Below are positions 10,978 to 38,897 of a stretch of DNA of 64,000 nucleotides, in pieces (the first letter of the stretch is position 1; the number at the start of each line of letters is the position of its first letter). The notes beneath the pieces were generated by a model, which searched no databases, was not told where the DNA came from, and saw nothing but the letters and a program-made list of their open reading frames with translations. Location: positions 1 through 64,000 of the forward strand of contig JAKFXX010000003.1 in NCBI GenBank assembly GCA_021731145.1, given 5' to 3'. A program made the translations under genes and the position numbers. The stretch is from Gammaproteobacteria bacterium. GTDB lineage: Bacteria > Pseudomonadota > Gammaproteobacteria > Ga0077554 > Ga007554.

Positions 10978-11101
10978 ACATTTAGAATGGTGGGAACGGC
11001 ATAAGGGGCCGTAATCACCGTAAGGCATTGCGCCCTTCACGGGTGTGACAATGAGGCTTAACCAGAAAAGCACTGGTTATTCCTTAACGGCCCCTAAATG
11101 T
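10978..11101. repeat. Branched palindromic element, candidate structured RNA or DNA
   Basis: acatttag (10978-10985) pairs with ctaaatgt (11094-11101), and ggggccgt (11005-11012) pairs with acggcccc (11087-11094). Inside lie two independent hairpins, ccgtaagg with ccttcacgg and aaccag (11060-11065) with ctggtt (11073-11078). The fold resembles a three-way junction with a bulged closing stem. No function is known to me. Confidence 0.5.
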
Positions 11102-11139: not shown

Positions 11140-11240
11140 AGGCGCTGTAAATAAATTAACGTCTCACATTGAAAGCTGAGTTACATGTTTTCCGCGCACG
11201 GAATGCGTCAACTTGGTGCCTTTATTTATTTACAGCGCCT
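11140..11240. repeat. 101-bp element with 16-bp perfect inverted ends
   Basis: AGGCGCTGTAAATAAA (11140-11155) is perfectly inverted at 11225-11240. The ends resemble those I associate with IS256-type transposons, so an internally deleted relic is possible. No convincing target duplication is visible and there is no ORF inside. Confidence 0.55.
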
Positions 11241-11295
11241 AAATCGAATGCGCGAGTTCGCAGGGTGGAATCATGGCTTTATGGACATCGTCCTA

Positions 11296-11438
11296 AGAAC
11301 CTGTTCACGATCTCGCTGAAGGGCGCATTGCGGCGTTAAAATCGAACTCAAAATGCTTACATACTTCGTGTATGCTCCGCTTTTTCGTTCGATTTTGCCT
11401 TGCACTGCATCCCTTGATCAAGATCGTGAACAGGTTCT
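11296..11438. repeat. Structured dispersed repeat, copy A
   Basis: The outer arms AGAACCTGTTCACGATCT (11296-11313) and their perfect inverse (11421-11438) enclose an inner stem (aaaatcgaac with gttcgatttt) and an apical hairpin (catac-ttcgt-gtatg). The unpaired or loop-proximal segments, such as ctcaaaatgct and ctccgctttttcg, are shared with the element at 38476-38615. The stem sequences differ between the copies but stay self-complementary. Confidence 0.75.
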
Positions 11439-11495
11439 AAAAGCTAAATTTTAATGAGGGGGTCCTGCCTGATCTCTACCCCGTCAAGTCAATCA

Positions 11496-11525
11496 TTGAC
11501 AGGTTAAGCCTGTGGCAATCATACT
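11496..11525 (+). promoter_or_regulatory. Candidate sigma-70 promoter of the czc operon
   Basis: TTGACA (11496-11501) and CATACT (11520-11525) are 18 bases apart, giving a perfect -35 and a 4/6 -10 box. Transcription would begin almost at the czcI start codon, so the czcI message would be nearly leaderless. Small dyads overlap the site (caggttaagcctg), where a metal-responsive repressor could bind. No regulator gene is adjacent. Confidence 0.35.
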
Positions 11526-11532
11526 GTCGGTC

Positions 11533-11883
11533 ATGCGACGTTTTCTTGTGCTCATCATGCTGTGTATGCTCCCGCTCCAGATCTCCTGGGCTGCGGTGGC
11601 CGACTATTGCGGGCATGAGCAGGGGAAAGCCGCACAACACTTCGGTCATCACGACGACGAGCACAAAGCGTTTTCTGAAAAATCCGACTTAGACAAGCAG
11701 CCCGGGAAATCCAATCTCGGACACGATCACTGCCATATGTCTGGCTTCCTGTGTCTCCTGAATGAGGCTGTTGCTCACACCTCTGTTCCACCTACACTAC
11801 CTTCGTTGCGTTGCGACGAACGGATTCGCTCTTCCCTCGCTCTGGATAGACCAGAACGTCCCAAATGGCACGCTCTCGCCTGA
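11533..11883 (+). CDS. czcI: CzcI-like small exported metal-resistance protein
   Basis: A 116-residue protein with a cleavable signal peptide (MRRFLVLIMLCMLPLQISWA) followed by a His-rich segment (CGHEQ, FGHHDDEHK, GHDHCHMSG). This matches CzcI, the small periplasmic protein encoded first in cobalt-zinc-cadmium resistance operons and thought to modulate their expression. I start it at ATG 11533 because the signal peptide begins there; a GTG 21 bases upstream is in frame. It lies 97 bases before czcC on the same strand. Confidence 0.75.
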   Translation: MRRFLVLIMLCMLPLQISWAAVADYCGHEQGKAAQHFGHHDDEHKAFSEKSDLDKQPGKSNLGHDHCHMSGFLCLLNEAVAHTSVPPTLPSLRCDERIRSSLALDRPERPKWHALA

Positions 11884-11980
11884 TACGGCGGGACGGATGC
11901 CACTCATCAAGCTAGCACGCGCTTTTTAGTCTGCGCAGTTCCGTTTCGCCGGATTCATCCTTTCATTTCTGGAGAATTCG

Positions 11981-13309
11981 ATGCGAAGACGTCTATTGCC
12001 GTTTGGGTTGGCGGCGCTGTTTTTCAACCCATCTTTTGCACAAACTGTTGATGCCGGACGCGGTGGCACTTACGAAACCGGCGATGTCAGCGCGCCGCGC
12101 GCCACCGAACCGGCGGCCTCGCTCACCCTGAAGGCGGCACTGGAGCTGGCATTTGGCGCCAACCCGGAGCTATCGGCCGCCGGGCGCGAACTGGAGGCGC
12201 TCGAAGCGACAATCATCCAGGCGCAAGTACGCCGGAACCCGGAGATTGCAAGCTCCATTGAGGATACGCGCAGGGCGACGCGGACCACCACGCTGCAGGT
12301 AAACCAGCCGATCGAGCTTGGCGGCAAGCGCGCGGCCAGGATCGAAGCCGCCGAGCGGGGCCGTGATGCCGCGTCGGCGGAGCTGGACGCCAAGCGCGCC
12401 GAGATTCGTGCGACGGTGATGGCTGCGTTCTTCGATGTGCTCGTGGCACAGGAGCGTTTGCGCCTTGCCCATGCCTCGGTCGAACTCGCGCAACGCGCAA
12501 CCGCTGCCGCCTCGCGGCGGGTCGCGGCTGGCAAGGTGTCCCCGGTCGAAGAGACCAGGGCGCGCGTGGCCGAAGCGAGTGTGCGGGTTGAATTGACACT
12601 GGCTGGCAGTGAACTGGTGACCGCACGCAAGCGCCTCGCCGGTACCTGGGGCAATGCGATTCCCCGTTTCGAGCGTGCCGAGGGCGACCCGGAAGCCCTG
12701 CCGCCGCTACCCGTTCTAGCCGACCTGAACAACCGTCTCGCCGCCTCGCCCAACCTGCTGCGGGCCAGGATCGAGGTCGACCGCCGACTGGCGCTGGCGG
12801 AGGTTGAACGCAGCCGGCGCGTTCCGGACCTGACCGTCAGCCTGGGCGCCAGACGCAACGAAGAACTGGGCCTCAATCAGGCGATTTTCGGCGTGTCGAT
12901 TCCGATCCCGGTCTTTAATCGCAATCAGGGCAACCTGCTTGAAGCGCTGCACCGCACCGACAAGGCGCGGGACGAACTGTCCGCCGCTGGGATCCGCCTG
13001 TCCAATGAGCTGGCTGTTGCGTACGAGCGCCTGAACACGGCACGCCAGGAAGTCGAGACGCTGCGGCGGGACATTCTGCCGGGTGCGCAAAGTGCCTATG
13101 ATGCCGCGACCAAGGGCTTCGAGCTGGGCAAATTCAGCTTTCTCGACGTGCTGGACGCCCAGCGCACTTCATTCCAGGCTAAATCCCAATACCTGCGCGC
13201 ACTGGCCGGGGCGCACCGGTCTGCTGCCGAGATCGAACGCATCCTCGGTGAAGCATTGCCCAGTTCAACGCCCGATCCGACCTTGGCACCCGCCGCCACA
13301 AAATCGTAG
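11981..13309 (+). CDS. czcC: CzcC-type outer membrane channel of a heavy-metal RND system
   Basis: A 442-residue TolC-family outer-membrane efflux protein. It begins with a signal peptide (ending SFAQ) and carries the two OEP repeats typical of the family, with long heptad-rich helices (LELAFGANPEL, GVSIPIPVFNRNQGN, LGKFSFLDVLDAQRT). It forms the outer-membrane exit duct for the CzcA pump joined by the CzcB adaptor. A good ribosome binding site (ctggag) sits before the ATG. The next gene starts nine bases after its stop. Confidence 0.9.
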   Translation: MRRRLLPFGLAALFFNPSFAQTVDAGRGGTYETGDVSAPRATEPAASLTLKAALELAFGANPELSAAGRELEALEATIIQAQVRRNPEIASSIEDTRRATRTTTLQVNQPIELGGKRAARIEAAERGRDAASAELDAKRAEIRATVMAAFFDVLVAQERLRLAHASVELAQRATAAASRRVAAGKVSPVEETRARVAEASVRVELTLAGSELVTARKRLAGTWGNAIPRFERAEGDPEALPPLPVLADLNNRLAASPNLLRARIEVDRRLALAEVERSRRVPDLTVSLGARRNEELGLNQAIFGVSIPIPVFNRNQGNLLEALHRTDKARDELSAAGIRLSNELAVAYERLNTARQEVETLRRDILPGAQSAYDAATKGFELGKFSFLDVLDAQRTSFQAKSQYLRALAGAHRSAAEIERILGEALPSSTPDPTLAPAATKS

Positions 13310-13318
13310 GAACCCAAC

Positions 13319-18041
<4,723 letters not shown>

Positions 18042-37719: not shown

Positions 37720-38475
37720 GTGTTCCGTGTCATCATCCCCGCACGCCACGCGTCCAGCCGATTGCCCGGCAAGCCACTGCTTGATATTGGCGGTAAGCCC
37801 ATGATTCAGCACGTCTATGAACGCGCGCTGGAAAGCGGCGCTGCCGAGGTGGTGGTGGCCACTGATGACGAGCGCATCCGCAGCGTGGCCGAGGGCTTTG
37901 GTGCGCATGTGTGCATGACTGCAACGCATCACCCTTCAGGTACCGACCGCCTCGCCGAAGTGGCGCGGCTGCTGGGGTATGCCGACGATCAAATTATCGT
38001 CAACCTGCAAGGCGATGAACCCCTCATGCCGCCCGCGCTGATCCGCCAGGTTGCCGAAAATCTGCAAGCGCACTCGCAGGCCAGCATCGCCACGTTGTGC
38101 GAGCGCATCAAGTCCGCAGGCGAGCTGTTTGATCCGCATCTCGTGAAAGTTGTGATGGATAAACAGGGTTATGCCCTGTATTTCAGCCGCGCCGCCATCC
38201 CCTGGGACCGCGATGCCTTCACCGCGACCACCGGCGAACTGCCCGCCCGCTCTGAACACTACCGGCACATCGGCCTGTACGCCTATCGCGCCGCCTTCCT
38301 CCAGGACTACGTCCAATGGCCGCTGTGCGTGCTGGAACAGACTGAATCCCTGGAGCAGCTAAGAGCCTTGTGGCGGGGCTGCAAGATTCATGTTGCCGAG
38401 ACTCTGGAGCCGCCGGGGATTGGCGTTGATACGGAGGAGGATTTGCTGCGGGTACGGCGGGTGCTTGGGGGTTAA
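37720..38475 (+). CDS. kdsB: 3-deoxy-manno-octulosonate cytidylyltransferase KdsB
   Basis: A 251-residue enzyme that activates Kdo as CMP-Kdo for lipopolysaccharide core assembly. The nucleotide-binding start [16 protein letters not shown], the NLQGDEP segment and the C-terminal [10 protein letters not shown] are typical. It uses a GTG start, two bases after the preceding gene. The stop codon abuts the structured repeat at 38476. Confidence 0.95.
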
Positions 38476-38615
38476 GGGCACCTCTATAAACTCGCTAAAG
38501 CCGCGATGGCGGCGTTGAAAATAGGCTCAAAATGCTCATTTACTCCGTGTAAACTCCGCTTTTTCGCCCATTTTCGCCTTGCCCTCGCGCCTTGATCGAA
38601 TTTATAGAGGCACCC
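38476..38615. repeat. Structured dispersed repeat, copy B, filling a convergent gap
   Basis: gggcacctctataaa (38476-38490) pairs with tttatagaggcaccc (38601-38615) apart from two positions. An inner stem (gaaaataggc with gcccattttc) and an apical hairpin (tttac-tccgt-gtaaa) lie inside. It is homologous to the element at 11296-11438 in the non-stem segments. The repeat begins at the first base after the kdsB stop and ends at the base before the convergent stop, so it may act as a bidirectional terminator. Confidence 0.75.
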
Positions 38616-38897
38616 TTAGGCGTCCAGCAAATTCAGATCCAAAAACACCGGATTGAGTTCGGTTTTGTCGCCGCTCAGGACGGGGATAGTGAAGGTAGAG
38701 GGCACGCGGCGGTGAGCCTCGCCGAGCTGATCTGGCTGGATCATGGTGTGTCTCTCGCAATCCTGAAGGATCAGGGCGGGCTCATCCTCCAGCACCTCGA
38801 TAATCTGGCAGCGCGCGCCGTTATAGTTGACATGCAGGCCAATCAGGCCGCGCAATTGCGTCAGGGAACAAGACGGGCTGAAATCAGGGTATGTCAT
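38616..38897 (-). CDS. Conserved hypothetical protein
   Basis: A 93-residue soluble protein convergent with kdsB. A central strand-rich part (LIGLHVNYNGARCQIIEVLEDEPALILQD) resembles a small beta-barrel (SH3- or KOW-like) fold, followed by HRRVPSTFTIPVLS. No catalytic motif, membrane segment or signal peptide is seen. I cannot assign a function. Confidence 0.65.
   Translation of the reverse strand: MTYPDFSPSCSLTQLRGLIGLHVNYNGARCQIIEVLEDEPALILQDCERHTMIQPDQLGEAHRRVPSTFTIPVLSGDKTELNPVFLDLNLLDA

Follow-up and report, generated by a model that had tools for sequence, protein, structure and literature searches.

Two elements at the locus and their anatomy

The window, by which we mean the whole stretch of 64,000 nucleotides that we analysed, holds two related elements, copy 1 at 11296-11438 and copy 2 at 38476-38615, both located by direct reading. 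Copy 1 lies upstream of an efflux cluster (window 11512-18041) containing an outer membrane efflux protein (11981-13309) and an AcrB-type RND pump (14853-18041). Copy 2 exactly fills the gap that separates the stop codon of a cytidylyltransferase ORF (37720-38475; CTP_transf_3) from the end of a convergent small ORF. The features of both are collected in Table 1, in which TIR denotes a terminal inverted repeat.

Folded as DNA, copy 1 reached -41.9 kcal/mol (z -9.8), and copy 2, folded as RNA, reached -53.9 (z -6.5); no shuffle equalled either of them. The unpaired blocks that the first-pass annotation had described as common to the two elements are real, and one of them, CTCCGCTTTTTCG, has only two exact matches in the window. 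At one conserved base copy 1 deviates, reading TGCTTA where nearly all other copies read TGCTCA. The same annotation had placed copy 1 correctly but drawn its bounds at 11296-11438, when the mobile unit is 11297-11437 and lies inside a 3-bp TAA duplication. The target duplication of copy 2 is imperfect, with 3 of 4 positions matching (TTAA vs TTAG).

Two further inverted repeats occupy the intergenic stretch of copy 1. A second MITE-like repeat stands directly before it (window 11141-11243; GGCGCTGTAAATAAAT ... ATTTATTTACAGCGCC) with TAA on both flanks, and a third (window ~11002-11097; AAGGGGCCGTAA ... TTAACGGCCCCT) includes 15 bases of the outer arm of copy 1, inverted (11025-11039).

Table 1. 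Features of the two elements, in window coordinates.
Feature	Position	Strand	Evidence or remark
Target-site duplication TAA, left, copy 1	11294..11296	.	Direct reading; TNA duplications recur in most type-A copies
Left TIR, type A, GAACCTGTTCACGATCT	11297..11313	+	~21 inverted pairs of this TIR in the genome
Left outer arm CGCTGAAGGGCGCATTGC, common to copies bearing other TIRs	11314..11331	+	Sequence comparison of copies
Conserved hairpin core, copy 1	11332..11402	+	Covariance model R1: 90.9 bits, E 2e-17
Inner stem, left side AAAATCGAAC	11338..11347	+	Fold, pairs with 11387-11396; covariation
Conserved block TCAAAATGCTTA, family consensus TCAAAATGCTCA	11348..11359	+	Alignments of copies
Apical stem-loop CATAC-TTCGT-GTATG	11360..11374	+	Fold; covariation
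Conserved block CTCCGCTTTTTC	11375..11386	+	Window search; alignments of copies
Inner stem, right side GTTCGATTTT	11387..11396	+	Fold
Conserved block GCCTTG, facing GCGTT	11397..11402	+	Alignments of copies
Right outer arm CACTGCATCCCTTGATCA	11403..11420	+	Direct reading; copy comparison
Right TIR, type A, copy 1	11421..11437	-	Inverted-repeat searches
Target-site duplication TAA, right, copy 1	11438..11440	.	Direct reading
Left flank TTAA of copy 2, imperfect 4-bp target duplication	38472..38475	.	Overlaps stop codon of cytidylyltransferase ORF 37720-38475
Left TIR, type C, GGGCACCTCTATAAA	38476..38490	+	Direct reading; genome search
Conserved hairpin core, copy 2	38511..38581	+	Covariance model R1: 94.4 bits, E 3e-18
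Right TIR, type C, copy 2	38601..38615	-	Direct reading; genome search
Right flank TTAG of copy 2	38616..38619	.	Direct reading

One core between many TIRs, in this genome and beyond

A degenerate core pattern allowing up to 3 mismatches matched the genome 26 times, and its reversed control 0 times. BLAST and pattern searches together gave ~26 copies and the covariance model R1 gave 29, so that the search for further copies proposed by the first-pass annotation did return a dispersed family. Four TIR types surround the one core in this genome: A (copy 1), C (copy 2), B (TNNTACTGTGTCACAAAG, e.g. L018-L020 and L022) and D (GAGACCTCTGAGAAACTCG, at C4:27076). The arms CGCTGAAGGGCGCATTGCGGCGTT ... 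GCCTTGCACTGCATCCCTTGATC are identical in A and B copies, the difference being confined to the ends. The flanking direct repeats are mostly TNA (TAA, TTA, TCA) in type-A copies and 4 bp long in type-B and type-C copies. Because the copies carry different TIR types with different duplications, what had been compared as a single outer stem with compensatory changes turns out to be two unrelated transposon ends, of type A in copy 1 and of type C in copy 2; that the elements are MITEs with unrelated TIRs had been missed. Typical copies measure 118-172 bp from end to end, and no transposase gene fits or was seen inside. Old copies show decay (L024, L025).

TIR type C was also seen around a quite different core (TTCCCGTCATTCCCGCGAAGGCGGGAATCC...) at four loci (L104, L105, L106 and L110, at C24:14433, C4:28500, C22:20281 and C4:49341, respectively); TIRs and cores therefore combine in both directions. 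At one point of the core some copies carry a GC-rich mini-hairpin of 23 bp (CCTCGGTACCCCCTTGAGGGGTG or similar) that others lack, and even orthologous copies can differ in this way (L013-L016, L023 vs L388), and Pseudomonas and Halomonas copies have other small hairpins (CTCGTGCGCGAG, CTGGTGCGCCAG) at the loop beside TCAAAATG.

The orthologous site ~1 kb upstream of copy 2 is empty here (own L026:523/537) and occupied by a type-A copy in the genome G003. Most copies in the named genomes are intergenic, neighbouring genes having been called with a crude ORF method, and no bias in orientation relative to these genes was found (+|+ 23, -|- 24, +|- 22, -|+ 10). Neither was there a replication-strand bias, with 37 copies with and 30 against replication in G474, a complete Pseudomonas-like chromosome whose GC skew switches clearly near 2.7-2.9 Mb, and 6:6 in G128. 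Lacking orientation and replication bias, the insertions fit a double-strand process and lend no support to a strand-specific hairpin recombinase.

A PF01609 search of this genome found no partner transposase for TIRs A-D, and the assignment to an IS5-like kind thus relies on the resemblance of TIRs and duplications to published tables. The sole DDE_Tnp_1 gene in the genome was rejected as the partner, being IS4-like with ends (TAGCGTCCGGTTAAA) that differ from TIRs A-D. One TIR-A end, at C2:200979, is followed by a putative transposase tail, which has no Pfam match.

Beyond this genome, the degenerate core pattern matched at least 120 stretches in species-representative genomes, and the matches listed include Pseudomonas, Chromobacterium, Halomonas, Marinobacter, Nitrosomonas, Desulfobacterales, Alistipes and Bacteroidaceae. 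Model R1 matched 103 of 274 genomes sampled from the host's class (more than a third), 97 of 398 sampled from its phylum and 8 of 198 Bacteroidia genomes. The core family is present in at least three bacterial phyla. Copy number ranges from 0 to >150 between genomes, and the copies are not syntenic. Two Chromobacterium genomes each hold at least 150 copies, a Pseudomonas MAG ~149, a Desulfobacterales MAG 102 and an Alistipes MAG 40. At least 15 TIR types surround the core, as counted by eye from outermost inverted repeats detected automatically, and Bacteroidia copies contribute further types; several of the types resemble IS5-family ends. Detection succeeded in 114 of 168 copies, and we saw no clear example of a core that stands alone, lacking TIRs. 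Phage records gave no match, and in plasmid records the element is rare and mostly from Pseudomonas. Chromobacterium and Thalassolituus contigs also hold clusters in which several core copies, some of them nested or in tandem, share a stretch of between a few hundred and a few thousand bases (L187, L122, L165, L178).

Covariation, proposed arm copying and the conserved blocks

Over ~200 aligned copies the covariation for which the first-pass annotation had proposed a check is overwhelming. Pairing, which is somewhat inflated in both alignments by their fit to the model, reached 95.0% of cells in 120 copies from the named genomes (80.2% when shuffled, at most 59% when slid) and 95.2% in a second, more diverse set of 94 (75.7% and at most 57%, respectively); in each set 19 of the 21 pairs had changed on both sides. 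In an ungapped set cut by the central pattern only, the inner ten positions were 81% Watson-Crick compared with 51% when arms were exchanged between copies, and both variable apical pairs were Watson-Crick in all 136 copies. Even the G-C pair adjoining the fixed loop has become C-G in Bacteroidia, through a change in each arm (L342, L345).

Among 19 non-redundant sequences, the columns of the inner stem (helix 1) mostly hold 0-0.8 bit, the outermost pair excepted, and the unpaired columns CGTT (before the stem), CTCA, CTSCG and GCCT (after the stem) show conservation mostly of 0.9-1.0. For the central blocks this conservation is partly ascertainment, the first searches having used a pattern that contained them; CGTT and GCCT were absent from that pattern, and their conservation is therefore not its artefact.

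Wobbles are scarce in helix-1 cells, with G-T at 1-2% and A-C at 2-4%. Stems selected as RNA are expected to hold more G-U. Wobble counts are nearly equal between strands in 45 stems (27:24), and in larger sets lean slightly towards the minus strand, with A-C over G-T at 63:27 and plus-strand pyrimidine over purine pairs at 82:28 (helix 1). This slight excess of mismatches tolerable on the minus strand hints at folding of one strand. Most of the fixed mismatches on this strand are G.A or A.G, as read from the alignment and not from a computed structure. We rejected a reading of the minus strand as a Shine-Dalgarno sequence and start codon (GGAG...RTG AGC ATT TTG): the second G of GGAG is C in ~40% of copies and the frame is not kept. 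An Rfam search returned no family match, only a microRNA-like hairpin far below its cut-off.

The ends of the elements covary as well. Across 46 type-A copies, departures from the TIR consensus were common to both ends 22 times, compared with 1.6 in shuffles (largest value 8 in 1000 shuffles), and in 16 of 16 copies the two ends agree in the variable bases (NN) of the type-B TIR, though these two bases differ between copies. Within one orthologous pair (L402 in G001, L418 in G003) the G001 copy changed CTCAAAATG to CGAAAAATG, two adjacent bases at once (TC to GA), and this change renders that arm the exact partner of the opposite one. At another orthologous site (L404 in G002, L420 in G003) the element is found in opposite orientations, which may mean that it inverted where it stood or that the site received a second insertion. 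The two arms of a single copy are not evolving independently, even where no structured core is at stake. Template switching of a polymerase between inverted repeats leads to arm homogenisation and to spacer inversion (PMC8604942, PMC7202029).

Because the TIRs covary, G-T and A-C intermediates are rare, change is concerted and an inverted copy exists, covariation alone fits template-switch copying of one arm. It supports a maintained inverted repeat and by itself is no proof of selection. Selection is better signalled by the unpaired blocks: homogenisation would erase them, yet they stay fixed from phylum to phylum as the stems drift freely. The first-pass annotation had taken compensatory change as the signature of selection as opposed to descent; its conclusion gains from the fixed blocks, and its argument is weakened by arms that are homogenised within copies, for which template switching could suffice.

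Origin and significance of the family

The elements contain no genes, end in TIRs with TIR-specific target duplications, are mainly intergenic and occur as empty and filled sites between related species, and one hairpin core stands between many unrelated TIR pairs. They are MITEs and not a host RNA gene. Our preferred reading, which we consider likely, is that both elements belong to one superfamily of non-autonomous DNA transposons (MITEs) and owe their features to mobilisation in trans, arm copying and selected blocks. Each version would be moved through its own TIRs by transposases supplied in trans, which the TIRs and target sites suggest are mostly IS5-like DDE enzymes. Arms that covary, the TIRs among them, would stay complementary chiefly because one arm is copied from the other by template switching or fold-back, and a TIR captured at one end could be copied to the other, whereby the core would change transposase. 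The fixed unpaired blocks may be selected for a feature of shape plus sequence that aids the spread of the element, e.g. the binding of a putative widespread host factor to the extruded hairpin.

A reading in which nothing is selected, with template switching keeping the arms complementary and the blocks conserved through recent or horizontal spread, can draw on the homogenisation that we see directly and that is known between inverted-repeat arms (PMC8604942). However, homogenisation should also remove asymmetric blocks, which it does in a few degenerate copies (CGAAAAATG in G001), and the blocks persist in Bacteroidia and Pseudomonadota copies with little in common in stems, arms or TIRs. 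Compensated G-C to C-G swaps beside the fixed loop likewise speak against pure descent with mutation bias, which we regard as unlikely.

We judge it quite improbable that the host maintains the core as a functional structured RNA, whether cis-regulatory or trans-acting, with the TIRs incidental to it. Covariation beyond the controls was found, as in a structured RNA family, and the conserved unpaired blocks between freely covarying stems resemble one; the mostly G.A mismatches and the weak wobble excess of the minus strand point the same way. Against it stand the absence of an Rfam match and of an orientation bias to neighbouring genes, the presence of TIRs with target duplications, and G-T/A-C intermediates at only 1-4% in variable stems, below the G-U tolerance expected of RNA. 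Since the copies are dispersed, non-syntenic, variable in number and without orientation bias, and old ones decay, a role in the element's own transposition or persistence is likelier than a role as host RNA. A strand-specific system of single-stranded DNA hairpins like integron attC or REP/RAYT, with one folded strand as the substrate of a recombinase or Y1 transposase, would account for a covarying stem with conserved extrahelical bases, and its minus strand would gain the G.A pairs read from the alignment. This reading is very improbable in our view, given target duplications that fit double-strand DDE transposition, insertions without replication-strand bias and no attC or REP motifs seen.

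As MITEs the elements belong to a known kind, the nearest described being MITEPsy1 and the P. fluorescens repeats. MITEPsy1 of Pseudomonas syringae pv. phaseolicola is a 100-nt MITE with an IS5-like TIR (GGAAGGTCTGAAAAAGCC) and a 4-nt CTAG/YTAA duplication, whose transposition was shown and whose authors stated that similar sequences may be widespread (PMC3189936). Compared by ends only, this TIR, shared with ISPsy2, is resembled by type GGAAGCTCTGAAAAA (L133) in our set; a cross-phylum core, TIR exchange or covariation does not figure in the passages that describe MITEPsy1 (PMC3189936). Similarly, the IS5-family ISPsy19, with TIR GAGGGTGTAGACAAAAT and a 3-nt duplication (PMC3189936), resembles our GAGGGTGTTTACAAAAT elements (L228, L236). 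ISPsy2 and ISPsy19 are autonomous and ~1.2 kb long, and a hairpin core is not among the features listed for them there. The P. fluorescens repeats R0, R2, R178 and R200 are intergenic inverted repeats of MITE-like form that occur in many copies, with an enrichment between convergent genes, and R178 measures 101 bp with an internal inverted repeat (PMC2718517); compared by description only, they are reported in the passages on them as strain-specific families, unlike the one core with many TIRs found here. REP/BIME sequences with RAYT are, like this family, high-copy intergenic palindromes of related hosts, but REPs span 20-40 bp, are tagged GTAG/CGTC (PMC3733652) and have no TIRs of such kind, whereas our elements span 120-170 bp with TIRs and target duplications. 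String and topical searches of open-access full text found no description of the core; ISfinder and the subscription literature fell outside their scope, which leaves priority uncertain.

MITEs are usually regarded as short-lived deletion derivatives of single insertion sequences. Going further than the preferred reading, we tentatively put forward as a possibility that the core is an ancient structured DNA module of at least three phyla, independent of any transposase, which would persist by TIR exchange (one-end capture and hairpin copying) and whose internal loop would be selected and read by a putative widespread host factor, the lineage being older than the insertion sequences that mobilise it and not derived from them. 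A cross-phylum core inside MITEs with many unrelated ends would make some MITEs long-lived lineages that move between transposases, and its conservation would also imply a putative factor that reads the folded centre. Searches for RNA that rely on covariation in repeat-rich bacterial genomes should take heed that covariation in inverted-repeat DNA, transposon ends included, can arise by arm copying. As a repeat that reaches 150 or more copies in a genome and occurs in more than a third of the genomes sampled from the class, the family is both major and unannotated.
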